From Candidatus Vecturithrix granuli (GTDB lineage: Bacteria; Moduliflexota; Moduliflexia; Moduliflexales; Moduliflexaceae), in the NCBI GenBank assembly GCA_000739535.1, contig DF820463.1, positions 604,956 to 668,955 of the forward strand: a stretch of 64,000 nucleotides of DNA, given 5' to 3'. The position numbers and the translations under genes are program-made. This document shows positions 4,367 through 64,000 of the stretch, in pieces. How positions within the stretch are numbered: the first letter of the stretch is position 1; each line of letters starts with the position of its first letter. The notes below the pieces were generated by a model. It did not search any database. It worked only from the letters and a program-made list of their open reading frames with translations, and was not told the DNA's origin.

Positions 4367-4431
4367 ATGTACCGCGAAACTCCAGTTTCACGGGTATCAA
4401 CGATGCGCGAAACTGGAGTTTCGCGCTACAT
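4367..4431 (+). repeat. Two-hairpin palindromic element (class 1)
   Basis: The outer ATGTA/TACAT ends (4367-4371 and 4427-4431) enclose two hairpins built on GAAACT/AGTTTC. The 17-bp segments 4373-4389 and 4409-4425 are perfect reverse complements of each other. The element can fold as one long hairpin or as two small ones. It lies in the 150-bp gap before the dehydrogenase start. A related single hairpin occurs at 23319-23345. Confidence 0.7.
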
Positions 4432-4449
4432 TTTCAGGGGAGAAAAATT

Positions 4450-5427
4450 ATGTCAAAACCGAGTGTATATGTCACACGCTTGATTCCCCAAGTGGGAATT
4501 GATCTACTGCAAGCTGAATGTCAGGTGGAAATCAATCCTCATGATCGTCCGTTAACCCATCAGGAACTCCTGGAAAACGTGCAAGGACGCGATGGCATTC
4601 TCTGTTTGTTAACGGATAAAATTGACGCTGAAGTATTTGACGCGGCGCAAGGCGTCAAAGGGATTGCCAATTATGCGGTCGGCTATGATAATATTGACGT
4701 GCCAGAAGCAACGAAACGTGGCATTCCGGTTTCCAATACGCCCGGTGTGCTCACAGACGCCACCGCCGAAATGGCCTGGGCCTTGTTGTTTGCCGTCTGC
4801 CGCCGGGTGGTGGAATCGGACGCTGTGATGCGTTCCGGGCAATGGCCAGGCTGGGGACCATTACAATTTATCGGCGGCGATGTAACCGGTGCAACGCTTG
4901 GCATTGTTGGCGCAGGTCGTATCGGCACGGCTATGGGGCTGAAGTCCAAAGGATTTCAGATGAAGGTGTTGTATAGCGATGCCATCCGCAACGAGGTGCT
5001 TGAGCAACAGCTCCAGGCCGAAAAAGTTGATTTTGACACATTACTCGAACACTCCGATTATGTGAGCATTCATGTGCCGCTCATGCCGGAAACTCGCCAT
5101 CTGTTTGGGAAAAACGCCTTTCAACGCATGAAAAAAACGGCGTATCTCATCAACACCTCTCGCGGCCCGGTGGTGAATGAAGCAGAATTGGTGGACGCGT
5201 TGCAAGCCGGTGAAATTGCCGGGGCCGCGCTTGATGTGTACGAAAAAGAGCCTGTGATGGCCGAAGGTCTCAAAGACCTTAAAAACGTTGTGATCACGCC
5301 TCATACCGCGTCTGCTACCATCTCTTCTCGCGGCGGGATGGCGCGTCTGGCCGCCACCAATCTGCTGGCCATGCTCAAAGGCGCAAAAGCCCCTAATTGC
5401 TTGAATCCGGAAGTGTATAAACAATAA
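4450..5427 (+). CDS. D-2-hydroxyacid dehydrogenase (glyoxylate/hydroxypyruvate reductase-like)
   Basis: NAD(P)-dependent reduction of a 2-oxoacid such as glyoxylate or hydroxypyruvate to the D-hydroxyacid, in the cytoplasm. At 325 aa it has the usual length. The dinucleotide fold carries GAGRIGTAMG from residue 154. The catalytic triad of the family is present as Arg238 (TSRGP), Glu267 (EKEP) and His285 (TPHTASAT). The N-terminal part (NYAVGYDNIDVPEA, TDATAEMAWALLFAVCRR) fits the GyaR/GhrB branch better than SerA, and there is no ACT domain. The start at 4450 follows AGGGGAGA eight bases upstream. It runs co-directionally after ggt but is separated from it by a palindromic repeat. Substrate is not determined by the sequence. 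Confidence 0.9.
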   Translation: MSKPSVYVTRLIPQVGIDLLQAECQVEINPHDRPLTHQELLENVQGRDGILCLLTDKIDAEVFDAAQGVKGIANYAVGYDNIDVPEATKRGIPVSNTPGVLTDATAEMAWALLFAVCRRVVESDAVMRSGQWPGWGPLQFIGGDVTGATLGIVGAGRIGTAMGLKSKGFQMKVLYSDAIRNEVLEQQLQAEKVDFDTLLEHSDYVSIHVPLMPETRHLFGKNAFQRMKKTAYLINTSRGPVVNEAELVDALQAGEIAGAALDVYEKEPVMAEGLKDLKNVVITPHTASATISSRGGMARLAATNLLAMLKGAKAPNCLNPEVYKQ

Positions 5428-5441
5428 GGCGATTCCGCATC

Positions 5442-5500
5442 GTACCGGTGAACAGCCGTGTTCACCGAACCTGCCGACGAACACGGCTGTTCGTCGGTAC
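5442..5500 (+). repeat. Two-hairpin palindromic element (class 1)
   Basis: Outer GTACC/GGTAC (5442-5446 and 5496-5500) encloses an 8-bp hairpin (5447-5466, loop GCCG) and a 10-bp hairpin (5474-5497, loop CGGC). The loops are exact reverse complements, and both stems share GAACA/TGTTC. It lies between two convergent genes but has no T-run, so a standard terminator is unlikely. Confidence 0.75.
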
Positions 5501-5520
5501 ATCTATGGGGCAACAGAGAC

Positions 5521-5919
5521 TTACTGGCCCGGCATATTCATGGTTTTCACATAAGGCGGTTTTACTTCATCTTCTGCGCCGCAAGGGATGACGCAAATGA
5601 TGCCTAAGGGTTCATTGTATGGATTGAGCCATTGATGATCTTCGTTACCAGGAATAAAAATCGCCTGTCCCGGTTTCAGTTCAACTTCACAGGGTTGCCC
5701 ATCCTGAATCCCTTGCAAGATGCCGCGTCCTTTGACGATAAAGACTTCATGTTCATGCGGATGATTTGGAGAACCAGATGGAGGCACGTTGGGCGGAATT
5801 TCTACATAGCGCAGTTCAAAATTTGGGGCGCCGACTTCCGCCGGAATCAGCCAATGAATTTTTTTTCCAGAGCGAGTCGTCCACAGAATGTCATCATTTG
5901 ACAGATCGGTGATATACAT
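5521..5919 (-). CDS. Small single-domain cupin protein
   Basis: A 132-residue beta-barrel protein with the two cupin motifs. His53, His55, His57 and Glu58 (HPHEHE) and the late His95 (GNEDHQW) form a typical metal site. The N-terminal part reads ILWTTRSGKKIHWLIP. Such proteins are often isomerases, dioxygenases or sensor-like binding proteins; the sequence does not settle which. A GGGAGAG ribosome site precedes the ATG at 5919. It faces the dehydrogenase convergently and stands upstream of nothing obvious on its own strand, so it is probably transcribed alone. The 97-bp gap to the response regulator holds no recognisable site. Confidence 0.8.
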   Translation of the reverse strand: MYITDLSNDDILWTTRSGKKIHWLIPAEVGAPNFELRYVEIPPNVPPSGSPNHPHEHEVFIVKGRGILQGIQDGQPCEVELKPGQAIFIPGNEDHQWLNPYNEPLGIICVIPCGAEDEVKPPYVKTMNMPGQ

Positions 5920-6017
5920 TAATTCTCTCCCGTATTAACGTTGAACGCGTCAAAAAACATAATGCTGACGCTTCAACACGCGCAACCTAAACAGAAGACA
6001 GCTATTATCAAAATCAA

Positions 6018-6377
6018 CTACTGACCGAGCAATTCTTTCACTCGGGCTTTTAGTTCTGATAAATCTGACGTTTTGACCGAATAGCCGCTAGAAAGCCAGG
6101 CGCTGAAATCCTGCTGTACGTAATCCCCATACGCGGTGGAGATCAAGATCGGGAGGTCTTTATTGAACTGCCGGATGCGCCTCAGAAATTCAGAGCCATC
6201 CATCTCTGGCATTTTAATATCGAGGATCACCAAATCGATCTCCGGATGCTGTTCAATAATTCCTAGGGCTTCCAGGCCGTTTGATGCGGTTAATACAGTG
6301 TAACCCTCATCTTTAAATTCTTCTTCATATAACATACGAATATGTTTTTCATCATCCACAATTAACAGCGTTTTCAT
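6018..6377 (-). CDS. Stand-alone response regulator receiver domain
   Basis: CheY-like phosphoreceiver with no output domain (119 aa). The acidic pocket is at residues 8-10 (VDDE), the phosphoacceptor is Asp53 (LVILDIKMPEMDG), the switch residue is Thr81, and Lys102 is the conserved lysine. It lies directly downstream of, and on the same strand as, the GAF-type histidine kinase, so the two are a likely phosphorelay pair. The C-terminal part is slightly unusual: the segment after the switch (DYVQQDFSAWLSSGYSVKTSD) replaces the usual GADDYL.KPF, as in the receivers of many delta-proteobacterial and candidate-phylum kinases. The gap between the two genes is filled by a degenerate repeat tract. 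Output partner unknown. Confidence 0.92.
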   Translation of the reverse strand: MKTLLIVDDEKHIRMLYEEEFKDEGYTVLTASNGLEALGIIEQHPEIDLVILDIKMPEMDGSEFLRRIRQFNKDLPILISTAYGDYVQQDFSAWLSSGYSVKTSDLSELKARVKELLGQ

Positions 6378-6389
6378 AATGGATTTCCC

Positions 6390-6528
6390 AAATGTTAGAT
6401 ATTGGATGCTAAATGTTGAATGTTAAATGTTCGATATTAAATGATAAATATTCGCTCACCAATAATTCAACATTCAACACCTAACATCTAACATCCAACA
6501 TCTAACATTCAACACCCAGCATTCACCA
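6390..6528 (+). repeat. Degenerate 7-10 bp repeat tract in inverted blocks
   Basis: The left block (6390-6446) is made of variants of AATGTT(A/G) and the right block (6462-6528) of the complementary AACAT(C/T) units. The two blocks can pair into a long AT-rich stem. The tract fills nearly all of the gap between the kinase stop and the receiver start. No coding sense is seen in it. Confidence 0.7.
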
Positions 6529-8937
6529 TTAGATATTTCTGGGATCATTAGGTAAATTGATGACAAACGTAACGCCAACTCCCGGGCGGTTTCTCACATT
6601 GATATTGCCTTTATGGTTATCGATGATCTTACGAATAATCGCCAACCCAAGGCCCGTGCCGCTCCCTTTCGTAGTAAAGAAAGGATTGAAGATATTATCA
6701 ATGATTTCCGGTGCAATTCCGCCTCCGTTGTCTGTCACTTCGATCGTGACGCCGCCTTTCAGCGATAACGTGTTATAGGTCATGATGTTGATCATGCCTT
6801 TTTTCTCTGGTACTTGTTGCAAAGCATTGGTGAGCAGATTAATAAAGACCTGTTTCAATTGTCTGGTATCAGCGATAATCAGATCAATATCTCTGTAAAA
6901 ACAGGGGTTCACGTCAATTTCCCGATCAAGAATTTCAAGCCCTACCACATCTAAGGCACCTTTAATCACATCGTTGATATTACACTCTTCAAAGCGTATA
7001 GGGGTCTCTTTTGAGAAGATCAGAATATCCTGCAAGATCGTCTCAAGGCGCGTGGCTTCTTCAGAAATAATGTTCACATATTTTTTATTTTTTTCGCTGA
7101 GGGTTTCATCATTGAGTAATCGGCGCGCAAATCCGCCGACACAGATGATAGGATTCCGAATTTCATGGGCAACATCAGCCGACATTTTTCCCAGAGCGGT
7201 GAATTTCTCCGTCTGCACCAATTGATCCTGGGCTTCCCGCAATTCGCGATTCCGTTTTTCCAAATTGGCATACAACATCGTGTTATCAATCGCCAGGGCG
7301 GCCTGATTCGCAAACATTTGCAGGAAATTCATATCATCTTCACTGATCGGGACGTTATTATATTTGTTATCCACATAGATAACCCCAATCACCTTATCTC
7401 TATAGATCAGGGGGACTGTCGCAAAACGCGTTGTTTCCAGTAAACTAGCAATAGCATGACAATCTTCGAGGTGCTGGTTGGCATCGAGAATGTTGAATGC
7501 TCGTTTTTCTAAGACTGTCCGGGCAAACAACCCCTGATCCGGGACAAGCGGTATCCAGATACTTTTGGCTAACTTTTCAAAGGCAGTTTCCTCATACTCT
7601 CCTTCATCCGGAACCTCAGTAATCATTTCCACCAGAGATTTTTGTTTGTTCACCTTGCTCTGCCAAATCTGGTGGGCTTCTTCGCCCGATCCCGGTCCCA
7701 CGCCAAGCTTTCCCTTAAGAGTTTGGCTATGCTCATCTACCATCAACAGCATCGCCCGGTTAAACCCCAAACCGCCGCCAATCGTAACCCCGGTTAAAAT
7801 AATCCGCAGCAATTTACTGAGTTTGACCGTTGACCGCATAGCCGTATTGATATGATACAAGATAGATAATTCGCGTAATCTCAGCAAATTATCCAGCGCC
7901 AACTCTTCCATGCGTTCGTAAAACCGGGCATGTTCAATTGCAATGGCGGCATGTCCAGCAAACGAGGTTAAGAGATTGCTATCTTCCTCGGAAAAGCGGT
8001 GATTTTCTCCATCCGGATTTTTATCAAAGGTTGCAATCGTCCCGATCACCCCTTCTTTGCCTGTGATCGGCACGCAGATAAGCGAATGGCGTACGGATTT
8101 AATCACCTCGTGTTCCAATAATTCCGGAGTCACTTCATCAAGCCGGATTGGTTCCCCTCGCTGGGCGACAAGACCGGCAATACCATCGCCAATTTTGCGC
8201 TCCGGGGCGATTGCCATATCGGTGACGACATCGCCATAAGACGACTTAATTTCCAGTAGCGTCTGTTCTCGATTGAGCAAACGTAAGACACAGCCGCGAG
8301 AATTCGTCAGTTCAACGCTGGTTTTGGCAATTAAATCTAACAACTCATCAAGATTCAGGGTCGAACTGAGAGCTTTGCCAACCTCGTAAATTCTGGTTTG
8401 CTCTTCCTGTTTGCGGATAAGTTGATGTCGAAGGGAAGAGTTACTCACAAGCCCGAATACTTGAGAACTCAGAATTGATGTCAGGGTGAATTCAGCAGGC
8501 GTATATACTCTTGTCTCAAGGTTCCAAAGTACTAATGTACCGGTACAACCATGGTGTTCATTGAAAATCGGAGTCGCCAGTACTGATTCAAATCGTTCAG
8601 AGCCAGTCGTAGGATCGTGAAGCGTCTGCGTGAGCATCATGGCATCCATGGCCGTCCAGGCGGACAGAGATCCTGGAGGCATCAGATCACCATTCAACGG
8701 AGTCAATTGCGACCATGCAGTTTCTAACTGATCAGACGTCTTGCCATATACAGCTTTATAGATCCGCAGATCGCCTTGCTGAATGTAAATTGAGCAGGCA
8801 TCCGACTGGAGAAACTCAGCGATCAATTGCGCAATCTGCTGCAAACACTCATGGAGTTCAAGCGATGCATAGCTCAGGCGTCCAACGCGATCTAAAACCT
8901 CAAGTTCCCTGTTCTGGTTTATCATTTCGTGGCACAT
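6529..8937 (-). CDS. Sensor histidine kinase with three GAF domains
   Basis: Cytoplasmic (no membrane helix) sensor kinase that autophosphorylates on His591 of the H-box (VAHEIRNPI). Order of domains from ATG 8937: GAF1 (about 20-165), GAF2 (about 190-335), GAF3 (about 365-540), a short coiled coil, the HisKA dimerisation helix, then HATPase_c with N-box (LLTNAL), G1 (DNGGGI), F (FNPFFTTK) and G2 (GSGTGLGLAI) boxes. The open frame extends to a TTG at 8982, but that extension would cover a perfect 22-bp palindrome and lacks a ribosome site. Methionines at 8937 and 8925 are both reasonable starts. It probably phosphorylates the receiver encoded just downstream. Its position after glgA, galT and the pfk genes hints at a role in carbon or energy sensing, which is inference. 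Confidence 0.92.
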   Translation of the reverse strand: MCHEMINQNRELEVLDRVGRLSYASLELHECLQQIAQLIAEFLQSDACSIYIQQGDLRIYKAVYGKTSDQLETAWSQLTPLNGDLMPPGSLSAWTAMDAMMLTQTLHDPTTGSERFESVLATPIFNEHHGCTGTLVLWNLETRVYTPAEFTLTSILSSQVFGLVSNSSLRHQLIRKQEEQTRIYEVGKALSSTLNLDELLDLIAKTSVELTNSRGCVLRLLNREQTLLEIKSSYGDVVTDMAIAPERKIGDGIAGLVAQRGEPIRLDEVTPELLEHEVIKSVRHSLICVPITGKEGVIGTIATFDKNPDGENHRFSEEDSNLLTSFAGHAAIAIEHARFYERMEELALDNLLRLRELSILYHINTAMRSTVKLSKLLRIILTGVTIGGGLGFNRAMLLMVDEHSQTLKGKLGVGPGSGEEAHQIWQSKVNKQKSLVEMITEVPDEGEYEETAFEKLAKSIWIPLVPDQGLFARTVLEKRAFNILDANQHLEDCHAIASLLETTRFATVPLIYRDKVIGVIYVDNKYNNVPISEDDMNFLQMFANQAALAIDNTMLYANLEKRNRELREAQDQLVQTEKFTALGKMSADVAHEIRNPIICVGGFARRLLNDETLSEKNKKYVNIISEEATRLETILQDILIFSKETPIRFEECNINDVIKGALDVVGLEILDREIDVNPCFYRDIDLIIADTRQLKQVFINLLTNALQQVPEKKGMINIMTYNTLSLKGGVTIEVTDNGGGIAPEIIDNIFNPFFTTKGSGTGLGLAIIRKIIDNHKGNINVRNRPGVGVTFVINLPNDPRNI

Positions 8938-8952
8938 GAACAACGATGCGGG

Positions 8953-8974
8953 AAGCGTGATCGAGATCACGCTT
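8953..8974 (-). promoter_or_regulatory. Perfect palindrome upstream of the histidine kinase
   Basis: AAGCGTGATC (8953-8962) and GATCACGCTT (8965-8974) form a perfect inverted repeat around a 2-bp centre, 15 bases before the kinase ATG and 38 bases after the glgA stop. No T-run follows on the minus strand. It could be an operator or an RNA hairpin; the function is inferred from position only. Confidence 0.4.
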
Positions 8975-9011
8975 TCTCTCAATTGGTATAAAGGAGATCA
9001 TCAGAGCGTAT

Positions 9012-10487
9012 TTATCTATGCACTTTTTCATACGCTTTTTTATAGAGTTTTTCGTATTCTTTCGCGGACGCGCTCCAGGAAAAATCTTCCTGCATCCCCC
9101 TTATCATCAGAGCTTCCCAACTTTTTTTCTCCTTATAGGCTTTCAGCCCATTTTTAATCGCGCTGAGCAGATTCTCCGCTTTATAGGCATTGAATTTGAT
9201 GCCGGTGCCCAGCCCTGCTCCTTTATTAGCGTTCGGTTGGAAAGTTTTAATCGTATCATTCAGACCGCCTGTGGCCCGAACAATCGGAACTGTTCCGTAT
9301 CTCAGGCTATAAATCTGGTTCAACCCGCAGGGTTCATAGCGGGAAGGCATCAGAAACATATCGGCCCCGGCCTCGATTTTATGTGCCAGCTTGGCGTTAA
9401 ATTCGAGGCGAACGCCAAATTTTTTCGGATATTTTTCTGCGATGTGGCTGAAGAGCTTATGATAGCGTTCATGCCCAGTACCTAAGATGAGGAAATACAA
9501 ATTCTGTCTCATATTCATCAGCGTATCAACGATTTCAGCTACTAAATCGAACCCTTTTTGATCATCAAGGCGCGAAATCATGGCGAGCACAGGCCAACTG
9601 TCATTCACTGGCAGTCCGAATTCTTTCAATAAATCTCTTTTACACGCCAGTTTGCCTGAAAGATCATCAACACTGTAATTTTGAACTATATGCGGATCGG
9701 TTTCAGGATTCCAGAGCGAATAATCGACGCCATTGATAATCCCGTACAGATCAGCACTGCGAAATTGCAACACCCCTTCCAGACCATGCCCATATTCTTT
9801 GGTTTGAATTTCTTCACTGTATTTCTGGCTGACCGTGGAAATCAGGTCTGCCCAGAGCAACCCACCCTTCATAAGGTTGATCTTCCCATAATATTCGAGA
9901 CCATTCGGGGTAAATAAGTCCCATCCCAGGCCGGTGAGGTGCATGTCATAGTGCCAGAATAAGCCCTGATAGCCAAGATTGTGTACCGTATAGACTGAGG
10001 CTGTTCGAGCAAAGACTGGCTCGTTTTGATAGATTTTACGCAGATAGACCGGGGCTAACCCTGTTTGCCAATCGTTGCAATGGAGAATATCCGGGGCAAA
10101 ATTGACGGCTTTGCAGGCTTCCAGGATACTTCTGGAAAAATAGATAAAGCGTTCGGCGTTATCAGGATAATCGCCTTGTGAATCACCGTACAAGTGATCG
10201 CGATGGTAATAATTATCGTTTTTGATAAAATAGACTGGTACGGCGTCTCCCAGAGTACCTTCTAAAATCGAACAGGTCTCCATCCGATTGGAAATCGGAA
10301 CATCCAAACTTTCAACAACAGGCGTTAAGTGAAAGGTTTTGCCGTCGGTGACTTTGTATTTTGGAGTAATCACCCGTACGTCATGCCCGAGTTGTTTTAA
10401 CGCCACTGGCAGAGAACCGGCAACATCGGCTAACCCTCCAGTTTTCGCAAATGGGACAACTTCCGGAGAAGCAAACAATATGTTCAT
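9012..10487 (-). CDS. glgA: Glycogen synthase (ADP-glucose type)
   Basis: GT5 enzyme that extends alpha-1,4-glucan from ADP-glucose. The 491-residue chain has the substrate-binding KTGGLADVAGSLP at the N-terminus (Lys15) and the C-terminal acid-rich signature PSRYEPCGLNQIYSLRYG followed by VRATGGLNDT. Both match GlgA rather than sucrose or trehalose synthases. Length is normal (about 475-500). The ATG at 10487 starts exactly at the conserved MxILFASPEVVPFAKTGG. It lies in a minus-strand run with galT and two phosphofructokinases, so glycogen build-up and glycolysis are grouped here. No branching enzyme or ADP-glucose pyrophosphorylase is in the window. Confidence 0.96.
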   Translation of the reverse strand: MNILFASPEVVPFAKTGGLADVAGSLPVALKQLGHDVRVITPKYKVTDGKTFHLTPVVESLDVPISNRMETCSILEGTLGDAVPVYFIKNDNYYHRDHLYGDSQGDYPDNAERFIYFSRSILEACKAVNFAPDILHCNDWQTGLAPVYLRKIYQNEPVFARTASVYTVHNLGYQGLFWHYDMHLTGLGWDLFTPNGLEYYGKINLMKGGLLWADLISTVSQKYSEEIQTKEYGHGLEGVLQFRSADLYGIINGVDYSLWNPETDPHIVQNYSVDDLSGKLACKRDLLKEFGLPVNDSWPVLAMISRLDDQKGFDLVAEIVDTLMNMRQNLYFLILGTGHERYHKLFSHIAEKYPKKFGVRLEFNAKLAHKIEAGADMFLMPSRYEPCGLNQIYSLRYGTVPIVRATGGLNDTIKTFQPNANKGAGLGTGIKFNAYKAENLLSAIKNGLKAYKEKKSWEALMIRGMQEDFSWSASAKEYEKLYKKAYEKVHR

Positions 10488-10567
10488 ACATCATGAGAAC
10501 GGGAAGCATAAAGCGATAGAATTGCGGAACGCAATTCCATAACTTGACGATCCCATTCTTCCATAGC

Positions 10568-11569
10568 TTAGATGTCAATTTCTCGTAAAAACGTTGCAGC
10601 ATCTTCAGGAGGGGTCGGATTGATATAAAATCCGGTGCCCCATTCAAACCCTGCAACCTTGGTGAGTTTTGGCATAATTTCGATATGCCAGTGATAATAT
10701 GGCACCTCATGCTCTTCGTGCAGTGGAGCGTTGTGAATAATAAAGTTATACGGTGGATCCTGAAGGACTTTATCCATGCGAGTAATGGTTTGCTGAAGTG
10801 CCCTGGCCAGATTCGTGTATTCTCCTTTCCGGCAATCTTCAAACACCGATGAATGATGCTTTGGTAAGACCCAGGTTTCAAATGGAAAACGCGGGGCGTA
10901 AGGGCAAATCACAATAAAATCGTCATTTTCACTAACAAGGCGAGCCTGCATCGTTTGTTCCTGATGAATAATATCACAAAACACACAACGATCTTTATAA
11001 TTATAGTACGTACTGGCGCCCTCCATTTCGGTCTGGACTACCAGTGGCACAATAGGAAGCGCAATCAGTTGCGAATGGGGATGTTCCAAGGAAGCTCCGG
11101 CCGCCGAGCCATGATTTTTAAAGACCATGATATATTTGAAGCGTTCATCTTTTTTTAAATCCAGAATTCTATCCCGGAAACCCCAAAACATATTTTCGAC
11201 ATCCTTCAATTCCATCTGCGGAATAGTCATGTCATGCTTTGGAGTCTCAATCAGGACTTCATGTGCTCCAACCCCATTCATTTTATCAAACATTCCCTCG
11301 CCGACTTTGTGCAGCCCTCCTTCGATTTGCAAAGCTGGAAATTTATTCGGTACCACTCGCAGCGACCATCCGGCAGTGTTAGGAAGGCTGTTGGGATTCC
11401 GATAGGCAAGCACTTCAGGCGGAGTTGTCGCTTCATTTCCTCCACAAAACGGACAAAATCCCCCGCGTCGTTCTTCAATAGTACGCCCGAAATCTGAAGG
11501 TCGCTTTCCTCGATTCGTCGAAATGATAACCCATCTGCCGCTAATCGGATCTTTTCGTAACTCTGGCAT
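10568..11569 (-). CDS. galT: Galactose-1-phosphate uridylyltransferase
   Basis: Transfers UMP from UDP-glucose to galactose-1-phosphate in the Leloir pathway. The 333-residue chain carries Cys39/Cys42 (CPFCGG) for metal binding and the HPHSQ active site with nucleophile His165, preceded by NHGSAAGASLE. The C-terminal part has the paired histidine block YHWHIEIMPKL. This is a full-length, intact member of the HIT superfamily branch. It lies 80 bases upstream of glgA on the same strand, a pairing seen in other bacteria that link galactose entry to glycogen. No galK or galE is in the window. In some lineages this branch acts as a broader nucleotidyltransferase, for example on ADP-sugars, and that cannot be excluded. 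Confidence 0.94.
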   Translation of the reverse strand: MPELRKDPISGRWVIISTNRGKRPSDFGRTIEERRGGFCPFCGGNEATTPPEVLAYRNPNSLPNTAGWSLRVVPNKFPALQIEGGLHKVGEGMFDKMNGVGAHEVLIETPKHDMTIPQMELKDVENMFWGFRDRILDLKKDERFKYIMVFKNHGSAAGASLEHPHSQLIALPIVPLVVQTEMEGASTYYNYKDRCVFCDIIHQEQTMQARLVSENDDFIVICPYAPRFPFETWVLPKHHSSVFEDCRKGEYTNLARALQQTITRMDKVLQDPPYNFIIHNAPLHEEHEVPYYHWHIEIMPKLTKVAGFEWGTGFYINPTPPEDAATFLREIDI

Positions 11570-11669
11570 GTTTATAACCTCAGTGATGATACGTCGTGGA
11601 CAGTAAGTTTGGACAACACTCGTTATTCTGATTCATAAGCAGTTCGACAATGTTACCACGTCGAGTTCT

Positions 11670-12704: not shown

Positions 12705-12717
12705 GCGTTACTTGCTC

Positions 12718-12745
12718 ATAAGGGCACACTTGCGTGTGCCCTTAT
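12718..12745 (-). repeat. Strong 12-bp hairpin between the two pfk genes
   Basis: ATAAGGGCACAC and GTGTGCCCTTAT (12718-12729 and 12734-12745) pair perfectly around a 4-base loop. On the minus strand it follows the pfp stop by 38 bases and precedes the next start. Without a T-run after it on that strand, attenuation or mRNA 3'-end protection is more likely than classical termination. Confidence 0.55.
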
Positions 12746-12783
12746 TGTATTGTTAGGTTAAAGCTTTCATTCTCACCAGAGAC

Positions 12784-14049: not shown

Positions 14050-14077
14050 AGATTCTCCCCTTTTTTCCCTCAAATCT

Positions 14078-14200
14078 ATAGTTTTTCATAAAAACTTGCA
14101 CGTATCTCGACCCTTTGATACCGCGCAGGTATCGTTCCGCTTGACAATCGTTGTGCACTAAGCGAAGTCGAAACGTGCAATGTAATTTCTGAAAAACTAT
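14078..14200 (+). repeat. Long imperfect inverted repeat in the 315-bp pfp upstream gap
   Basis: The arms 14078-14103 and 14173-14200 share ATAGTTTTTCA at the ends and ACGTGCAA/TTGCACGT at the inner sides, with a few mismatches. The centre contains a smaller GATACC/GGTATC hairpin. The rest of the gap 14050-14364 (AT-rich right part) shows no open frame I believe and no clear promoter. The repeat may be a degraded miniature mobile element lying over the pfp control region. Confidence 0.5.
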
Positions 14201-16493: not shown

Positions 16494-16604
16494 CTTATAA
16501 CCTCCTGAGAACTACTACATGACCAAATTCATTCTGACAGATTCGGAGTTCTCGCTTTAGCGAGTTTCCGCCTGAAGGTGAGACTACGAACATGACACCT
16601 CCTA

Positions 16605-17600: not shown

Positions 17601-17647
17601 GTAGTAAACGCTTCAGCGTTTCATAACGCCGCTAAAGCGGCTACTAC
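17601..17647 (+). repeat. Two-hairpin palindromic element (class 1)
   Basis: Outer GTAGTA/TACTAC (17601-17606 and 17642-17647) encloses AAACGC-TTCA-GCGTTT and GCCGC-TAAA-GCGGC, giving a compact three-way junction. It lies between the B12-protein gene and the proC-like gene. Confidence 0.75.
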
Positions 17648-23278: not shown

Positions 23279-23318
23279 TCATACTGAGTAGTTACAGAAT
23301 TTATTCATAATCACTCAG

Positions 23319-23345
23319 CCGCGAAACTGAAGTTTCGCGCTACAT
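23319..23345 (+). repeat. Single GCGAAACT/AGTTTCGC hairpin
   Basis: CGCGAAACTGAAGTTTCGCG (23320-23339) followed by CTACATTTTC is nearly identical to the right half of the class-1 element at 4406-4434, so it is a half-copy of that element. Confidence 0.65.
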
Positions 23346-38393: not shown

Positions 38394-38653
38394 AACCACG
38401 AAACACACGAAACACACGAAAGATGTAATGAAGCGTTCACACGAGTATTCTTTCAATGTTAAAGTGACGAGTAACACTGTACCCCGGACAGCCTTGTCTG
38501 GGCAGATACGGACAGGGCTGTCCGAGGTACGAATTCGTCAGTCAAATCTTGAAAGAACACTATAACGCTGTCTCACCTGAAAAACCTCAAACGTTTCGCG
38601 TCTTCGGGTGAGTTTTACTAAGATTTTCGTGTGTTTCGTGTGTTTCGTGGTTT
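38394..38653 (+). repeat. 260-bp nested palindromic element
   Basis: The outer arms are AACCACGAAACACACGAAAC-type repeats (38394-38421) and their complement (38624-38653), each with tandem CGAAACACA units. Nested inside is a class-1 two-hairpin element at 38479-38530 (outer GTACC/GGTAC; hairpins 38484-38501 and 38509-38524, loops GCCT and GGGC), with TTCTTTCAA/TTGAAAGAA around it. It fills the whole gap between wzm and the GDP-fucose synthase gene. Confidence 0.8.
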
Positions 38654-54164: not shown

Positions 54165-54200
54165 TGACAATGCTAAAGTAAGGTTAGTTCCAAATGAAAT

Positions 54201-55877: not shown

Positions 55878-56749
55878 AACTTTCCTCACATATCGCCTGG
55901 CCTAAAATTAGTATCACCACTCCATCTTATAATCAAGCTGCTTTTTTGGAAACCACAATTCAAAGCATTCTCTCGCAGAATTATCCAAATCTTGAATATA
56001 TTATTATAGATGGCGGGTCAACCGATGGAAGTGTTGACATTATCAAAAAATATGCACAGCATTTGCATTTTTGGTGTAGCGAATCGGATGATGGGCAATA
56101 TAATGCTATAAACAAGGGGTTTTCCCTTTCTTCCGGCGAAATTATGGCCTGGTTGAATAGCGATGATATGTATTTTCCCTGGGCGTTAAAAACGGTCGCG
56201 AGTATTATGGCGGAACTCCCCCAAGTAGAATGGCTGACAACTCTCGAGCGCGGAAAATGGGATTGGCAGGGGTTTTGCCTTCAATATTATCCGGTGCCAG
56301 GATATTCCAGGGAAGCCTTTTTAGACGGATGCTATCTGCCGGCTATGAAGGAAAAGGATATGGGCTGTATTCAGCAGGAATCGACGTTTTGGCGTCGTTC
56401 CCTCTGGAACAAAATCGGAGGAAAAATCCCATTAACATTTCCGTTAGCCGCTGATTTTAATCTCTGGGCGCAGTTTTACTGTCATGCGGAACTATATGCG
56501 ACTCGTTCTCCTTTAGGTGGATTCCGATGCCAGGAAGATCAGCGCAGCTCTCATATAGAACGCTACATTTCGGAAGCCAATAAAGCGCTTGACAATATAC
56601 GAGAAATTTTACATTGGATGCCACGTAACAGAGGAAAACTCATGGAGCAATGGTTTGCATCCAGGTATTATTCTGCAAAACAAGTGTATCGTCAACATCC
56701 TGACAGACCTGACGGCACATGGGCAATAAAGGAATATCGTTTTTTATGA
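55871..56749 (+). CDS. Family 2 glycosyltransferase, paralogue 1
   Basis: GT-A glycosyltransferase, 292 aa: ISITTPSYNQAAFLETTIQ, then IDGGSTDGSVDII, then AWLNSDDMYFPW as the metal site, and QQESTFWRRSLWNKIGG. It is closely similar along its whole length to the enzyme at 59420 (identical stretch TIQSILSQNYPNLEYIIIDG in both), including the unusual C-terminal HPDRPDGTW tail. Start and stop overlap its neighbours by 7 and 4 bases, so it is part of a tightly packed transcript. Confidence 0.93.
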   Translation: MVELSSHIAWPKISITTPSYNQAAFLETTIQSILSQNYPNLEYIIIDGGSTDGSVDIIKKYAQHLHFWCSESDDGQYNAINKGFSLSSGEIMAWLNSDDMYFPWALKTVASIMAELPQVEWLTTLERGKWDWQGFCLQYYPVPGYSREAFLDGCYLPAMKEKDMGCIQQESTFWRRSLWNKIGGKIPLTFPLAADFNLWAQFYCHAELYATRSPLGGFRCQEDQRSSHIERYISEANKALDNIREILHWMPRNRGKLMEQWFASRYYSAKQVYRQHPDRPDGTWAIKEYRFL

Positions 56750-57678
56750 ATCATCATCATGCTAACCAACAACCGCTAATTTCTATAGTGATTCCATCGT
56801 TTAATCAGGGACAATTTATCGAACAGGCCATAACGTCTGTATTGGGACAAAATTATCCGAATATCGAACTTATCGTGATTGATGGCGGGAGTAGTGATCA
56901 GACGCTTCAAATTGTTGAAAAATACCAGCATTCGATCCGTCATTGTATTTCTGAACCGGATCATGGGCAGGCTGAGGCGATTAATAAGGGATTTCGCCTG
57001 GCACAAGGAGATATCTTGGCCTGGCTCAATTCTGATGATATGTACTTACCATGCACCTTGTCGAAAATAGCTGCTGCCATAGGAAACACGACAGAACCTG
57101 CGCTTGTCTATGGAGGCGCGTTATACTTTTATGAAAAGACAACCTATACATTTGGCGAATTGCCGCCTGAGTTTGATCCTGACCAGTTGACATATTTCGA
57201 TTATATGATCCAGCCCAGCACTTTTTGGAACAGGAGGGTATGGGAAACGGTCGGCGAATTAAACGAAATGTATTGTTATGTGTTAGATTGGGACTGGTTC
57301 ATCAGGGCTTCAAAAATCTGCCAGTTTACCCGTCTCGAAGGCGAGTATCTGGCAATATATCGACTGCATGGATCCCATAAAAGCGGTACAGGCAAAGATG
57401 CGCGTCAGGAAGAAATTCTGCGTGTTGTCGAGACGTATGCCAGCCAGGAATGGATTGCTGCGTATCACGATGTCTACAAAGTAATCACGCCGTTACGGAC
57501 ATGGTTGTATCGCTTATCTCGGTTGAAGTTATACTGGCTGCGATATGGCTTGTACCCTCGATTATATCTCAAATATGGGAAACATTGTATCGAGGATATT
57601 ATCTTGAGTTTATTAATTGTTCCACATATTTCCACAGAACCCCGGTTTAACCGATTGAAACCGTATCCTTCTTTTTAA
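56746..57678 (+). CDS. Family 2 glycosyltransferase, paralogue 2
   Basis: GT-A glycosyltransferase, 310 aa, same subfamily as its neighbours but more distant: ISIVIPSFNQGQFIEQAITS, IDGGSSDQTLQIV, LAWLNSDDMYLP and MIQPSTFWNRRVWETVGEL. ATG 56746 overlaps the previous stop (ATGA); the frame is open from 56719. The C-terminal 60 residues are basic and aromatic, possibly a membrane-surface helix. Donor sugar unknown. Confidence 0.92.
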   Translation: MNHHHANQQPLISIVIPSFNQGQFIEQAITSVLGQNYPNIELIVIDGGSSDQTLQIVEKYQHSIRHCISEPDHGQAEAINKGFRLAQGDILAWLNSDDMYLPCTLSKIAAAIGNTTEPALVYGGALYFYEKTTYTFGELPPEFDPDQLTYFDYMIQPSTFWNRRVWETVGELNEMYCYVLDWDWFIRASKICQFTRLEGEYLAIYRLHGSHKSGTGKDARQEEILRVVETYASQEWIAAYHDVYKVITPLRTWLYRLSRLKLYWLRYGLYPRLYLKYGKHCIEDIILSLLIVPHISTEPRFNRLKPYPSF

Positions 57679-57701
57679 AGAAATGGAGAGAGAGCTGCTT
57701 G

Positions 57702-59387
57702 ATGATGGAAAATCACCTCAGAAATCGCATGGCGTTTTTTAGAAAATATATCAAAACGGCTAAACATGATCTGTTTATGATCGGGGTTTTATGTGTAGCT
57801 GCCTGGAAATTAACCTGCGGTCTTGAGTATTTCATGGATATAAAACTATCTGACGAGAGCCTCTATCTCTATTCCGGAATACAAATCTCAGACTATGGTA
57901 TTCCAAAATTTGCCGAGTATAGTCCGTTATATGCGTTCTGGTATTATCTGCTTTCATTATTTCAACCGGATAAAATTCAATTATACTATCTCAATTATAA
58001 GGTATTAGCAGGATTATTACCAATTTTGATGTATCTTTTATTCAGAAGATATCGTGTTTCTGTCGCTGAATCCGGATGTCTCGCAGGATTTGTCTTGCTT
58101 GCTCATGCCAACCTACCAGTATGGCCTAAAGTCGGTCATCTGGCAGTTTTACTATCATTGTTATTCTTTCTTATTGCGACATGTACCAATTCTTTTGACA
58201 GGGCAACATTAATTTTAAGTATAGGCGCTTTATTGAGTTCTTATGTCAGACCTGAGTTTTTCATGACTTATGTGTTATTGATTGGTCTATCTCTTATTAT
58301 TGCTGTAATCAAGAAACATTTTACTGGAAAAGATATGTATTTGTTTGTGATGGTCATACTTCTTTCAATAGTATGTATCATTCTTTTAGGAGTACCCGCG
58401 TTTAGTAGAAACGGAGAGAGAAGTTTCTTTGCATTCAGTCAGCATTTTGCTGTAAACTGGGTAACATGGACCAGGAGTGACATCAATCCCTGGACAAATT
58501 GTGAAGAAATTGTGACAGATAATTTTGGTCTAGTCCGGAGTATCCCTGAGGCTTATGAAAATAATCCATCTGTATTTCTGAAGCACGTTGTCTCCAACCT
58601 GAAAAACACAGGGAAAACGTTGACGAAGTTATTAACGCCAAAGTATAATAAAATATTTTTACCGAATAATAAATTATTTCATCTTATTGAAATAACTTTT
58701 TTGTTTGGGATGATAGGACTCTATTTACATTCGATAAAAAAAAGGTGGTTAGGAAAGCTCAGCTCGAAATTTCAACAACATAAAAATCTTTTCGTTCATT
58801 TCGGTTTATATTCAATCCCTGGTTTTATCGCAGCAATTATCATCTTCCCAAGAGACCATTATTTATTGCTGCAAAGTATATTCTTCCTTATCGTCATCGC
58901 TTGTATTCTCATAAAAAATCCTTGTGAAAATCATATTATAATCGATAGACAACACGTATATATTCTTGGATTTCTTATCATAGCTTTCACGCCAACTCCT
59001 GAAAATACACACCCATACCAGCTTCCCGGGCAATATCAATATAACTTAAAAACGATTCATTTTCTGAACTCTCTGAAAATTAAAGAGCAGGTGAACTTAC
59101 TTGAAACAGAAGGAGGAGGATATAGTATTTATGTGGGAGAGAATTATAATACGATACTGGAAGTTGAGAAAAATACTTCCTATGAAATGTTCATGCAAGA
59201 AAAGAATCTGAATATGATTATTTTAAATGATACATTAAAAGAAGATACCAGATTCAAAGATGACAAAGAATGGCAACTTTTTTTAACCAAATATGAAAGT
59301 TTCGGGTTCATAAAAATAGCAATTGATGGGACTCCTTTCAAGTTGCTCGTAAAGAAAGATCTGTTATATTCCTCTGAAAATACATAA
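57702..59387 (+). CDS. Polytopic membrane protein, GT-C glycosyltransferase-like
   Basis: A 561-residue protein with about ten hydrophobic segments between residues 25 and 430 and a soluble C-terminal tail of about 120 residues. An acidic motif in the first periplasmic loop (DIKLSDESLYLYSG) and the overall layout resemble GT-C enzymes of the PMT/ArnT type, which use lipid-linked sugars. I do not recognise a named family. GGAGAGAGAG lies before the paired ATG codons at 57702/57705. The base composition is visibly AT-richer than the upstream part of the cluster. Confidence 0.7.
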   Translation: MMENHLRNRMAFFRKYIKTAKHDLFMIGVLCVAAWKLTCGLEYFMDIKLSDESLYLYSGIQISDYGIPKFAEYSPLYAFWYYLLSLFQPDKIQLYYLNYKVLAGLLPILMYLLFRRYRVSVAESGCLAGFVLLAHANLPVWPKVGHLAVLLSLLFFLIATCTNSFDRATLILSIGALLSSYVRPEFFMTYVLLIGLSLIIAVIKKHFTGKDMYLFVMVILLSIVCIILLGVPAFSRNGERSFFAFSQHFAVNWVTWTRSDINPWTNCEEIVTDNFGLVRSIPEAYENNPSVFLKHVVSNLKNTGKTLTKLLTPKYNKIFLPNNKLFHLIEITFLFGMIGLYLHSIKKRWLGKLSSKFQQHKNLFVHFGLYSIPGFIAAIIIFPRDHYLLLQSIFFLIVIACILIKNPCENHIIIDRQHVYILGFLIIAFTPTPENTHPYQLPGQYQYNLKTIHFLNSLKIKEQVNLLETEGGGYSIYVGENYNTILEVEKNTSYEMFMQEKNLNMIILNDTLKEDTRFKDDKEWQLFLTKYESFGFIKIAIDGTPFKLLVKKDLLYSSENT

Positions 59388-59419
59388 AAATAACCCTATT
59401 TGATTCATTGGCTGCTTAT

Positions 59420-60334
59420 ATGAAATCTTTACACAATACGAAGACACTTCCTAAAATTTCGATAGCGACTCCTTCTTTCAATCAGGCCCAATTTCTTGAA
59501 GCCACAATTCAAAGTATCTTATCACAAAATTATCCAAATCTTGAGTATATTATTATTGATGGGGGCTCAACTGATGGGAGTGTAGACATTATCAAAAAAT
59601 ATGAAAAATATGTGCATTTTTGGTGCAGCGAACCTGATAATGGACACTATGCTGCGCTTAATAAAGGTTTTTCACGAACAACTGGTGAAATTATGGCGTG
59701 GTTAAACAGCGATGATATGTATTGTCCGTGGGTGCTAAGAACTGTCGCCAGCATATTTTCAACATGCCCACAAGTGGAATGGTTGACTACTTTGAGCCCG
59801 TGTATTTGGGATTATTACGGATTTTGTGAGAAAGTAGAGCATATTGCCGGCTATTCAAAGGAAGCTTTTTTAGAGGGACGCTGTCTTGCCTGGGTTCCGG
59901 AATCTCTCGGCTGGATCCAACAGGAATCGACATTCTGGCGTCGGAGCTTATGGGAAAAAGCTGGCGGCTACGTATCTACAGATTTTGCTTTAGCAGGTGA
60001 TTTTGAATTATGGTCACGTTTTTATATGCATGCGGAGTTATATGGAGTTCCTTCGCCATTAGGAGGATTTCGATATCAACATACTCAGAAAACATTTCAT
60101 CAAAAACAATATGTGCAGGAAGCACGGCAGATAGTGAAAAAAGTTAGATCCCCTGCTAACTGGACTCCAAACTTCAAAAGACGTATTATTGTATTCTTGA
60201 AGCTTCATAAGATCCCAAAATTAAAAAATTATTTCTGGCCAACCTACAGATATTCTGGTAAGAAAGTCGTCAGAAGACATCCAGAAACTCCTGATGGTTT
60301 TTGGGAGATTGAAACGTACCATTTTTATGATTAA
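59420..60334 (+). CDS. Family 2 glycosyltransferase, paralogue 3
   Basis: GT-A glycosyltransferase, 304 aa. Blocks: ISIATPSFNQAQFLEATIQS, IDGGSTDGSVDIIKKY, AWLNSDDMYCPW and QQESTFWRRSLWEKAGGY. It is a near copy of the enzyme at 55871, including the ending HPETPDGFWEIETY, and the two probably arose by local duplication. ATG 59420 is chosen over TTG 59408, which lacks a ribosome site. The gap of 32 bases after the membrane-protein gene suggests a common transcript. Confidence 0.92.
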   Translation: MKSLHNTKTLPKISIATPSFNQAQFLEATIQSILSQNYPNLEYIIIDGGSTDGSVDIIKKYEKYVHFWCSEPDNGHYAALNKGFSRTTGEIMAWLNSDDMYCPWVLRTVASIFSTCPQVEWLTTLSPCIWDYYGFCEKVEHIAGYSKEAFLEGRCLAWVPESLGWIQQESTFWRRSLWEKAGGYVSTDFALAGDFELWSRFYMHAELYGVPSPLGGFRYQHTQKTFHQKQYVQEARQIVKKVRSPANWTPNFKRRIIVFLKLHKIPKLKNYFWPTYRYSGKKVVRRHPETPDGFWEIETYHFYD

Positions 60335-60399
60335 TACTTTCTCCCTGAATGGGGCTAATTTTTGAGGGAAATGCAAGAGGTAGAGAGGATCCAGGATAT

Positions 60400-61488
60400 A
60401 TGCAAGTAAAAGGAGCAGTATCGTTATGGTTAAGAAAAACATTGCGTCCGGCATTACGGGAATTTTCATACTATACGTCTTTTCCTGTTGTTCGCCCTAC
60501 AAATGTCGTGATTTATATCACCGACCGTTGTCAACTACGATGCACGACCTGTTCGAAGTGGACAACGCCGGATGCGATCCAAGACAAAGAGTTGACAACG
60601 AGCGAGTGGAAAAAAATTCTTTTAGATTTAAAAAATTGGTTAGGCTTTTATGCCGTTTTTTTCTGTGGAGGAGAGCCGTTTTTGCGGAAAGATCTTCTCG
60701 AATTAATTGACTTTGCTGCCGAGCAGAACATTCCTTCCTCGGTGATTACAAATGGTTATAATATAGAACCTTTTGCAGAACAAATTGTCCAGTCTCGTTT
60801 AGCTTCGCTTCATGTCTCTCTCAATGGAATAACTCCAGAGATACATGATGTGACAAGAGGAACACCAGGAAGTTTGGAAAATACCATGAGTGCTCTTCTC
60901 AAAATTCATCAGCTGAAAAAACAGAGACGGGGAGAAAAGTTGTGGCTGAATATTGAAACCATCCTTATGCCCCAAAATGTTCAAGAAATTCTTCCACTCA
61001 TCGCCTGGGCCAAAGAACATGAGTTGGATAGCATTGATGTGCAAATTCTTGAAGACACGCAAACCTTTTATTCTTTTTCCAGGGGAAAAAGTGTTCAAAA
61101 GCCAGATGATTATCAACGACCATCCTCTTTAGAACAGCCCTGGAAAGACGGAAAAGGTGAGCTTCTTCTGGATGTTCTTGATGAACTTATCCGACAAAAA
61201 CGAGAGGGAGGTTTTATTGCTACTCCAGAAGCGCAACTTCATGCAACAAAAACATATCTTCGAAATCCTGATGACATCTTACGGATTCAATGTCGAGTTG
61301 GTGTTGATAGCTTTATCATTGATCCGTATGGAAATGTTCGACTATGTATGAATATGTCTCCGATTGGCTCTTTACTCGAAGAATCTCCAAAAGAGCTATG
61401 GTTTTCTCGATCTGCTCGTTTTCAAAGAAAGAATATTAAGAAATGTAAAATGTTTTGCCGGTTATTAACGTGCAATTTTTCCGATTGA
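60400..61488 (+). CDS. Radical SAM enzyme with SPASM-like C-terminus
   Basis: Iron-sulfur enzyme that makes a 5'-deoxyadenosyl radical, 362 aa. The CxxxCxxC motif is Cys44, Cys48 and Cys51 (DRCQLRCTTCSKW), followed by GGEPFLRKD. The C-terminal part has Cys residues in IQCRVGVD, VRLCMNM and KKCKMFCRLLTC, compatible with an auxiliary cluster. ATG 60400 with AGGAT upstream is preferred; ATG 60349 would add 17 residues without a ribosome site. In polysaccharide clusters such enzymes modify sugars or lipids, but the substrate cannot be read here. Confidence 0.9.
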   Translation: MQVKGAVSLWLRKTLRPALREFSYYTSFPVVRPTNVVIYITDRCQLRCTTCSKWTTPDAIQDKELTTSEWKKILLDLKNWLGFYAVFFCGGEPFLRKDLLELIDFAAEQNIPSSVITNGYNIEPFAEQIVQSRLASLHVSLNGITPEIHDVTRGTPGSLENTMSALLKIHQLKKQRRGEKLWLNIETILMPQNVQEILPLIAWAKEHELDSIDVQILEDTQTFYSFSRGKSVQKPDDYQRPSSLEQPWKDGKGELLLDVLDELIRQKREGGFIATPEAQLHATKTYLRNPDDILRIQCRVGVDSFIIDPYGNVRLCMNMSPIGSLLEESPKELWFSRSARFQRKNIKKCKMFCRLLTCNFSD

Positions 61489-61507
61489 ATAGCGTCTTGA
61501 AAATTTT

Positions 61508-62779
61508 ATGGGAAATTTTTTGCCGAAGATTTCAATCCAAATTGTCAGTCGTTACGTTCCTGCTGAAAATAAATCCGGGCCGTTTACCTATTTGTTTGAC
61601 ATCATGCGCTATCTTCATCGGATTGGTTGTCACCTTGAATTGAATATTCTTGATCCGTGGTTTCAAGTCCGGAATATCCCTGGAGCAGTGCAAGAAATGG
61701 CAAACGTGGTGATTATGCCGGCTTTACCGGAAGCCAATCAGCGGCAATTCTCAATAAAAACTCTGTTTCGGCCAATTTATACACGATTGCCAAACTCTGT
61801 CCTTCATCCTGTCAGGAAAGCGTTTTATGACCTACAAGGTAAACCATTGCCCGGAATTCATCCGCATGACGCCCCTGCTACCCAAGAAGAAATCGCGTTT
61901 ATTGCCGAACGAATGACAGCTTTTCGTCCTGATGTGCTTATCACCAATCACACCTGTTTAGGGAATACTTTTGAGATGAAAACATTCGAGAATGCCTCAA
62001 TTTTGAAAATCATCCTGACTCATCATATCGAATCACAAAGAACACACGATTTCAACCGGGCGCGGTTATCATCACGGGATTCTTTATGGAATCGAGAATA
62101 CGAAGCAAATCTCTTACAGCATGCCGACGTGCTGCTTGCAATTCAAAAAGAGGACGCCACGGTTTTAAAAGAGATGGCTCCTCAATGTGAGGTGTTATAT
62201 GCCCCCATGTCTGCGACATATCATCCCCATGAACCTGCGGAGCAAGTTGCAGGACGCTGCTTGTTTGTGGGCAGCGATATTGATCATAATGTACATGGCA
62301 TGACCTGGTTTTTACACGAGGTCTGGCCACTCGTTTTACAACAGCATTCGCAAGCGACGCTGCATGTGTGCGGTACGGTCTGTTCAAAAATTGACCATAC
62401 TTTTCCGAAAGTGCAATTATTAGGACGAGTGGAACAAATCGAGACAGAGTATGCGGCGACGGAGGTTTGCCTTATTCCTTTAGTGGTAGGAAGTGGCTTG
62501 AAAATCAAACTGGTAGAGGCCCTTTCGCATGGTCGCGCCTGTGTAGCGACCTCAGTAGGCGTTCAGGGCGTGCAAGAACTCAGGGGGAAGGCAGTGTTGG
62601 TGGCGGATACGCCATACGATTTTGCCCGGGACGTGATTTCGGTCTTGGCAAATGCTGATCAACGATGCAAGATGGAAGAAGAGGCGCGGCGCTATGTCAT
62701 CGAAAAGCTCTTGCCTGAAAAGACGTATCAACCCTTTATCAAGAGAATTTATGAGCATCTTACCCAATTGGTTCGATAG
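61508..62779 (+). CDS. Family 4-like glycosyltransferase
   Basis: GT-B glycosyltransferase, 423 aa. The N-terminal half (QIVSRYVPAENKSGPFTYLF, ILTHHIESQRTHDFNRARL) is divergent. The C-terminal half is typical: LFVGSDIDHNVHGMTWFL, LIPLVVGSGLKIKLVEALSHG and VATSVGVQG. The SGLKIKLVEAL block belongs to the branch often annotated Glyco_trans_1_4. It starts 20 bases after the radical SAM gene. Specificity unknown. Confidence 0.9.
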   Translation: MGNFLPKISIQIVSRYVPAENKSGPFTYLFDIMRYLHRIGCHLELNILDPWFQVRNIPGAVQEMANVVIMPALPEANQRQFSIKTLFRPIYTRLPNSVLHPVRKAFYDLQGKPLPGIHPHDAPATQEEIAFIAERMTAFRPDVLITNHTCLGNTFEMKTFENASILKIILTHHIESQRTHDFNRARLSSRDSLWNREYEANLLQHADVLLAIQKEDATVLKEMAPQCEVLYAPMSATYHPHEPAEQVAGRCLFVGSDIDHNVHGMTWFLHEVWPLVLQQHSQATLHVCGTVCSKIDHTFPKVQLLGRVEQIETEYAATEVCLIPLVVGSGLKIKLVEALSHGRACVATSVGVQGVQELRGKAVLVADTPYDFARDVISVLANADQRCKMEEEARRYVIEKLLPEKTYQPFIKRIYEHLTQLVR

Positions 62780-62905
62780 CTCAGATAGATCCCTATCCAA
62801 TGGGGAATTGCCGGATAGAAATATCATAACATACATTTGTTTTTGGAATCATGTTCGACTAATATACACCATTCCCCAAAAAAGTGTCGAAGACTCTAAA
62901 CCATA

Positions 62906-64000
62906 ATGAAAAAGATCTCCTTAAAACAATGGATTTCTGAAGCAATATTCCCTAAAACAAGGTATAGCCGTATTTTTTTACTATTAGTGATATTTAAAGC
63001 ATTAAGTTATTGGCTGATGGCAATGTGGTATTACCCAGCACAACCACTATCTGTCATCGCTCTGTATCGTTCTGGCGAGAGTATGAATTACTACCCTATC
63101 ATGGCGGCTCTCTCAAGTTTCGAATTTGGAGAAACTGTTGTGGTTGAACATTTAGGAAAAGGAGTACAAGCTTTTCCATTTGCCTCTATTGCATTTCATG
63201 CCTTTGCCTTTCGTTTGTTTCATGTCTATGGGATTATCCTCGCTGATATTATTATTGCGCTGTTGCATTATCTCATTTTTTGTACGTTTCTTCGTGTCAT
63301 TGGTATTCCTAAATTGTTAGCAGAATGTTGTAGTCTTCTTATTGTTACACAAGGAATAGATCGAGTTCTTTTCCAATTCACTCGACTTTATAATATATTC
63401 CCACGAAATATTTTTTTTATAGTATTATTACTATTCTGTATCTTGACTATAGGGATGCTAATTTATTTGTCATGTAGAAAAACCATTCCCCCCTTCCGTA
63501 CCTCATTTTTGATAACTACGATATTTTTCACAGGACTTTTATTACTATCTCTCGGTGTTATAGGATATAGCCATTGGAATTGGCGCATTCCACGACCATT
63601 TGTAACTGATGTCTATTTCTTTTTGTGTGTCTGCCTCGTAACAACACTCTTAAATTCTAGTGAGGAGTGTAATGACACAGAAGGTTATGGACACGCTCTC
63701 CGGAGTGCGCAAGCTCTGCTTGCGCGGCCAAAGCAGAGCTTTGGCACTCCGAAAAATGTCCATAACCTTGTATGTCAATACAAGGGGGATTATCAAAGAA
63801 AAATTTTGAGGGTAATATGGGCATGTTTAGGGGGAAGTTTTGCGTTTTTGTTACAAGGAGAAATTTATTTAACAATTTCTACAAGCCTTATGATCGGAGG
63901 AGTAATGATCCATTTGCTCACAAGAACTCACAGTACAAGAGAGCAGAAAATACAATGTTTTAAGGGATTTCTTCTATTTTCTATAACTGCAATGATAGGG
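62906..64000 (+). CDS. Polytopic membrane protein of unknown function, cut by the window end
   Basis: An uninterrupted frame of 365 codons runs from ATG 62906 to the last base. At least eight hydrophobic segments are seen (e.g. FLLLVIFKALSYWLMAMWYY, ILADIIIALLHYLIFCTFL, IVLLLFCILTIGMLIYL, VIWACLGGSFAFLLQGEIYL). I do not recognise the family; GT-C or polymerase-type membrane proteins are usual in this setting. Residues about 259-288 (EGYGHALRSAQALLARPKQS...) interrupt the hydrophobic pattern and are encoded by a palindromic DNA element, so they look like an in-frame insertion. No strong ribosome site. The 126-bp gap before it shows nothing notable. Confidence 0.7.
   Translation, partial: MKKISLKQWISEAIFPKTRYSRIFLLLVIFKALSYWLMAMWYYPAQPLSVIALYRSGESMNYYPIMAALSSFEFGETVVVEHLGKGVQAFPFASIAFHAFAFRLFHVYGIILADIIIALLHYLIFCTFLRVIGIPKLLAECCSLLIVTQGIDRVLFQFTRLYNIFPRNIFFIVLLLFCILTIGMLIYLSCRKTIPPFRTSFLITTIFFTGLLLLSLGVIGYSHWNWRIPRPFVTDVYFFLCVCLVTTLLNSSEECNDTEGYGHALRSAQALLARPKQSFGTPKNVHNLVCQYKGDYQRKILRVIWACLGGSFAFLLQGEIYLTISTSLMIGGVMIHLLTRTHSTREQKIQCFKGFLLFSITAMIG
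63681..63769 (+). repeat. Palindromic element inside a reading frame (class 1 core)
   Basis: AAGGTTATGGACA (63681-63693) pairs with TGTCCATAACCTT (63757-63769). Inside, CGGAGTG/CACTCCG (63701-63707 and 63745-63751) encloses two hairpins, CGCAAGC-TCT-GCTTGCG and GCCAAAGC-AGA-GCTTTGGC, with complementary loops. A further palindrome CCTTGTAT/ATACAAGG overlaps the right end (63766-63785). The host reading frame stays open through it. Confidence 0.85.

Follow-up and report, generated by a model that had tools for sequence, protein, structure and literature searches.

Double hairpins in Candidatus Vecturithrix granuli as very probable REPINs of four families, some of them centred in larger palindromic repeats

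Repetitive extragenic palindromes (REPs) are known to occur head to head, as homodimers and as heterodimers, the latter proposed to be protected from SbcCD-type cleavage (PMC3733652), and the doublet, or REPIN (REP doublet forming hairpin), has been described as the replicating unit (PMC3116915). The REP tags in the literature consulted are GTAG, GTGG or CGTC; REPINs have so far come mainly from Proteobacteria, with GTAG-type tags. The stretch considered here, 64,000 nucleotides of Candidatus Vecturithrix granuli (GenBank assembly GCA_000739535.1, contig DF820463.1, positions 604,956 to 668,955; 'the window' below), contains five small elements in which an outer stem encloses two adjacent hairpins. 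It is very probable that these are REPINs of four families, that is, head-to-head REP dimers corresponding to the unit of bacterial interspersed mosaic elements (BIMEs), and that a REP-associated tyrosine transposase (RAYT) recognises tag plus hairpin and spreads the doublet.

An earlier note, made from the sequence of the window, had picked out the five elements and their common design, and all five sequences and folds are as it described them. Element 1 (4367-4431, forward strand; f1 profile, E 3e-20) carries tag GTAC on the left and GTAG on the right, with loops CC/GG. Elements 2 (5442-5500, forward; matched by the f3 profile, with genome copies; loops GCCG/CGGC) and 4 (38479-38530, forward; f3 profile, E 9e-12) are both f3 REPINs with GTAC tags. 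Element 3 (17601-17647, forward; f4 profile, E 8e-14) has GTAG tags and the hairpins AACGCTTCAGCGTT and CCGCTAAAGCGG; element 5 (63701-63751, reverse strand, with a 49-bp core at 63702-63750; f2 profile, E 1e-15) has GGAGT tags and loops TCT/AGA. The five sequences had been called unrelated, which is overstated, elements 2 and 4 being one family. Folding with DNA parameters gives different preferences: the single long hairpin for elements 1, 2 and 4, and the double-hairpin form for elements 5 (a three-way junction) and 3 (two hairpins with the outer stem open).

The double hairpins are real and non-random. A purpose-built search for an outer stem with two adjacent hairpins, scored and controlled by first-order Markov shuffling, gave scores of 18-22 for elements 2, 3 and 5, where shuffles of the window reached at most 16; in elements 1 and 4 the stems are imperfect, and profile search picked these two up as family members. 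In 864 kb sampled from the 8.4-Mb genome, 58 structures scored at least 17 (7 in the shuffle) and 38 scored at least 20 (none in the shuffle). Most of the high-scoring structures cluster into repeat families; some are unrelated terminators. Profile searches of a 1.26-Mb sample yielded, after merging of matches, 58 copies of f1, 79 of f2, 14 of f3 and 32 of f4, with 7 of a fifth family, f5. Exact half-units number 289 for f1 and 336 for f2 in the whole genome, as against none for a reversed control. The design lies far beyond chance expectation. In 58 relatives the same half-units find one match (f2) and none (f1). Copy number is thus high, and position mainly extragenic: 138 of 190 profile matches lie outside open reading frames (ORFs, taken as simple open frames of at least 100 codons), though such frames make up 86% of the sample. 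Contamination of the assembly is estimated at 10.75%; the families are nonetheless present on most of the sampled contigs.

The half-unit has one plan throughout, a tag and then a short hairpin, and in all four families two half-units form an inverted doublet with a short spacer. The tags pair as an outer stem because the half-units face each other inverted, and the loops are complementary because one REP loop is read in both orientations. The kissing loops that had been proposed are therefore unneeded. At the element ends the tags are GGAG in f2 (106/110; the full tag is GGAGT), GTAC in f3 (24/26) and GTAG in f4 (51/58), and mixed in f1 (38 GTAG and 34 GTAC ends). The GTAG superfamily of PMC3733652, which has GTAG at the hairpin foot, takes in f4, and f1 in part, and leaves f2 and f3 outside.

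The pairing within f2 is informative about what is kept. The stems of its two hairpins differ in every case (identical in 0 of 18 distinct 49-mers and in 0 of 7 57-mers from the REPtron, a RAYT gene together with its own REPs on either side), while the loops are complementary in 15 of the 18 and in all 7. Pairs are retained within the own hairpin at 265/288 and between hairpins at 224/288, and several pairs are altered on both sides, that is, by compensatory change; it follows that f2 keeps the single hairpin and not the long one. The idea that selection acts on one long hairpin was accordingly set aside for f2, with its poorer cross-pairing; f1, nearly a homodimer, says little on this point. 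Selection on shape, one of the two explanations originally offered, has this much in its favour; the other, several families moved by an enzyme of Y1/RAYT type, is preferred.

That preference rests on RAYT genes. A search for them, as the earlier note had advised, found four RAYT-like genes of at least 60 bits, besides IS200-like genes and fragments, and two of the four lie among these repeats. The first (C18:825665-826210) matches NF047646 at 94.5 bits, above the cut-off of 80; its sequence contains NHYH (the HUH motif) and YLLYNP (the catalytic tyrosine region), and among solved structures TnpA-REP (4er8) comes nearest to it. An f2 doublet stops 8 bp 5' of its start codon, more f2 doublets lie 3' of the stop, and 23 f2 matches fall in the surrounding 20 kb. 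Elsewhere in the genome, at C3:26066-26567, f2 doublets recur every ~94 bp in what appears to be a tandem array. The second gene, on contig C13, lies between GTAC-tagged GTACCGCGAACCTCCCGGTTCGCGG repeats that form a subtype of f1; at 73.5 bits it falls below the NF047646 cut-off of 80, but it passes Y1_Tnp (26.4, cut-off 23) and has the HUH and tyrosine motifs. Both genes have open frames. A RAYT flanked by the repeats of its own family is therefore found for f2, and for f1 only by way of the subtype. The third (C16:206181-206642, reverse strand) matches NF047646 more strongly than any other gene in the genome, at 120.9 bits, and has GTAGCCCCGCC repeats of its own in its flanks. None of such repeats was seen in the stretch examined around the fourth (C16:16510); RAYT subclasses without recognisable REPs exist (PMC6006769).

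The link between repeat and RAYT, for f2 and the f1 subtype, is one of gene neighbourhood, which is observed directly. Cutting, copying, movement and the direction of insertion of the doublets are what we infer beyond it. Most likely the RAYT, as a single-strand transposase of the HUH/Y1 class, recognises tag plus hairpin on single-stranded DNA; by analogy with the TnpA-REP systems of E. coli and elsewhere, it would cut beside tag and hairpin and then spread the doublet. A further part of the copies comes from hitch-hiking, in which REPINs lodged centrally in palindromic repeats of other kinds are copied along with these by presumed enzymes.

The GGAGT tag is not confined to this genome. Relatives of the f2 RAYT, of which 80 from named genomes were compared, include records from Chloroflexi, Desulfonema, Thiomargarita, Methylobacter, KSB1, Kapabacteria and Cloacimonadota. 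A GGAG-tagged hairpin is found no further than 250 bp from the gene in 69 of the 80, and one tagged GTAG or GTGG in 12, a count that does not represent 80 independent events because the loci are related. The most enriched tetramers are GAGT (7.7-fold) and GGAG (6.9-fold), relative to hairpins more than 1.5 kb away, and many of the GGAG-tagged hairpins are complete doublets near the gene ends. Among relatives of the C13 RAYT the tags are GTAG or GGAG, which makes GTAC look like a local change. A RAYT relative in another genome (L219) has a GTAG-tagged REP-like hairpin within its own span, an arrangement known from subclass 2.4. No report of a GGAG tag with a RAYT or TnpA-REP was found in the open-licence literature, to which the search was limited.

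A different account supposes that the doublets are no longer mobile by themselves, and now spread only within miniature inverted-repeat transposable elements (MITEs) or leader-like repeats moved by other transposases. Copies lodged inside larger repeats are in fact observed, something the earlier note had not foreseen. Copies of f2 lie inside four MITE-like types that show shared flanks and target duplications, the latter read by eye. Type A measures 115 bp, and several of its copies have 6-bp duplications; type B measures 127 bp, and three of its five copies have 3-bp TNA duplications; type C, some 125 bp or longer, shows an 8-bp duplication in one copy; and type D is flanked by TA (for example C14:530936-531054, C9:175844-175980 and C18:537708-537810). 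In type D a single frame houses at least five different hairpins at its centre: two are not REP-derived, and the others include a single 'double-foot' f3 REP (subtype D3), an f3 REPIN and an f2 REPIN. Element 5 itself stands at the centre of a type A element with TGTAATGACACAGAAGGTTATGGACA ends (63668-63782, forward), a frame found in seven copies in the 1.26-Mb sample.

Copies of f1 are often housed in a leader-like frame, frame R, with the order AGGAG, ATG, ..., ATGAAAAT, centre, TTTCANAGGAG, with f1, f3, f4 or long non-REP hairpins in the central position. Both sides of the frame are present at 26 of 48 full f1 copies, as against 6 of 4000 random positions. Around element 1 it spans approximately 4300-4452 (forward) in the order AGGAG, ATG, ...CGCATGAAAAT, REPIN, TTTCAGGGGAG, ATG, and it recurs in many copies with other centres; element 1 ends 18 bp 5' of the ATG (4450) of a 2-hydroxyacid dehydrogenase gene. 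Frame R (also, for example, at C16:171993) combines a ribosome-binding-site motif, TTTCANAGGAG, with ATGAGC....GCTCACCCG and ATGAAAAT, precedes many genes, and may supply translation starts.

Spread by hitch-hiking only is nevertheless unlikely, if the most serious of the alternatives: unique flanks are seen in 17 of 34 isolated f2 copies and 17 of 28 f4 copies, the f2 RAYT has clusters of f2 arrays around it, and the RAYT frames at the f2 and f1-subtype loci are open. Insertion at hairpin tips as a general rule was also considered and rejected, as strong flanking complementarity occurs at only 12% of sites once related flanks are removed; this is enriched over re-paired flanks (4.5%) and random positions (0.9%), yet a minority.

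Several observations weigh against RAYT-spread REPINs of four families. The canonical GTAG tag is absent from f2 and f3. The repeats beside the C13 RAYT are of an f1 subtype, not f1 proper, and no RAYT bounded at both ends by f3 or f4 was seen among the matches examined, in a partial sample of an incomplete genome. Flanks are shared with other copies in 17 of 34 isolated f2 and 21 of 33 f1 cases, so the spread of such copies need not be by RAYT. Empty-looking sites are limited to two frame-R copies. Related genomes, which the earlier note had hoped would supply empty sites, gave no clean ones, the order supplying just three further genomes. A search for empty sites that excluded self matches returned nested repeats instead.

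A further account would make the elements terminators, messenger RNA stabilisers or translation controls, kept at the RNA level for host function. Their mostly intergenic position suits this, as does their distribution: 24 of 134 copies lie between convergent genes, where intergenic length predicts 13%, and 19 of 134 between divergent genes, where it predicts 24%. Copies of f1 often stand immediately 5' of AGGAG and a start codon; 33 of 44 lie near gene starts, as against 58% of random positions, a weak test with loosely defined ORFs. Against such a role, copies occur in both orientations, are nearly absent from the 58 relatives and are associated with RAYTs; a side effect on RNA would be compatible with mobility. 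As the primary explanation it is improbable. Paired hairpins, complementary loops and an outer stem would also suit attC-type recombination sites, or kissing-loop structures under selection for pairing between loops. Both are a very remote prospect: the copies are single, dispersed and mostly intergenic rather than in an array (no search aimed at an integron integrase was made), inversion accounts for the complementarity of the loops, and these are only 2-4 nt long. Chance can claim the tie at a score of exactly 17 (five in the sample, five in the shuffle), and next to nothing in the face of the excess at higher scores and hundreds of exact copies.

If the elements are REPINs placed by RAYTs, a broader scheme can be put forward tentatively: REPINs would be exchangeable central modules, set by RAYTs preferentially at the tips of existing hairpins, and then acquired, swapped and amplified, time and again, by unrelated palindromic repeats (types A-D and frame R), and a clade of RAYTs reading GGAGT, distinct from readers of GTAG, would span several phyla. 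Apparently new here are the GGAGT and GTAC tags, with a RAYT clade that crosses phyla, and the role of REPINs as centres that other palindromic repeats can swap. A deep-branching lineage with coexisting families, these tags and that clade offers natural test pairs for tag reading; RAYT insertion sites can be tested concretely through the swapping of REPINs among unrelated palindromic frames.

The window holds two further family members that had escaped the earlier note: a degenerate f4 copy at 16542-16589 (C21:621497-621544, forward; f4 profile match) and half an f1 element, a single REP, at 23315-23345 (C21:628270-628300, reverse; f1 profile match). Element 2 sits between convergent ORFs, and a weaker outer inverted repeat, AGTATTCTTTCAA / TTGAAAGAACACT, encloses element 4. 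The type A element around element 5 adds ~38 codons to an ORF that runs uninterrupted through it, from 62906 (forward) to the window end at 64000 and beyond, according to the ORF listing with open ends and the following DNA; the hydrophobic sequence flanking the insert suggests a membrane protein. REP inserts inside reading frames were already known (PMC3733652). Separately, the Rfam family Acido-Lenti-1 has matches at 2527-2572 in the window, where the match overlaps the start of a gamma-glutamyltransferase ORF, and at L075:5142-5187 (reverse) and 5283-5328 (forward), an inverted pair ~95 bp apart; here the family may represent dispersed repetitive DNA and not a small RNA gene.

Compared with the REPINs of Pseudomonas fluorescens SBW25 (PMC3116915), the elements share the inverted REP pair with a short spacer, the over-representation of doublets, the possible one-hairpin fold and the associated RAYTs; they differ in that the units are much shorter (47-67 bp), three of the four families bear GGAGT or GTAC tags, and f2 conserves single hairpins rather than the long one. 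The GTAG- and CGTC-tagged REP dimers of PMC3733652, as far as the available part describes them, are likewise head-to-head homodimers or heterodimers, mostly intergenic, some in reading frames or within longer palindromes; f2 and f3 bear neither of those tags, and the sharing of one larger frame by several REP families was not found described in that part. Also close are the TnpA-REP/RAYT REPtrons of E. coli and others (PMC8266576, PMC6006769, PMC2817692; PDB 4er8). In these too the RAYT is bounded by its own REPs and matches NF047646 and Y1_Tnp, and a 'double-foot' single REP occurs, as in MITE subtype D3; the tags searched for or described there are GTAG or GTGG, whereas the clade of the f2 RAYT goes with GGAGT.

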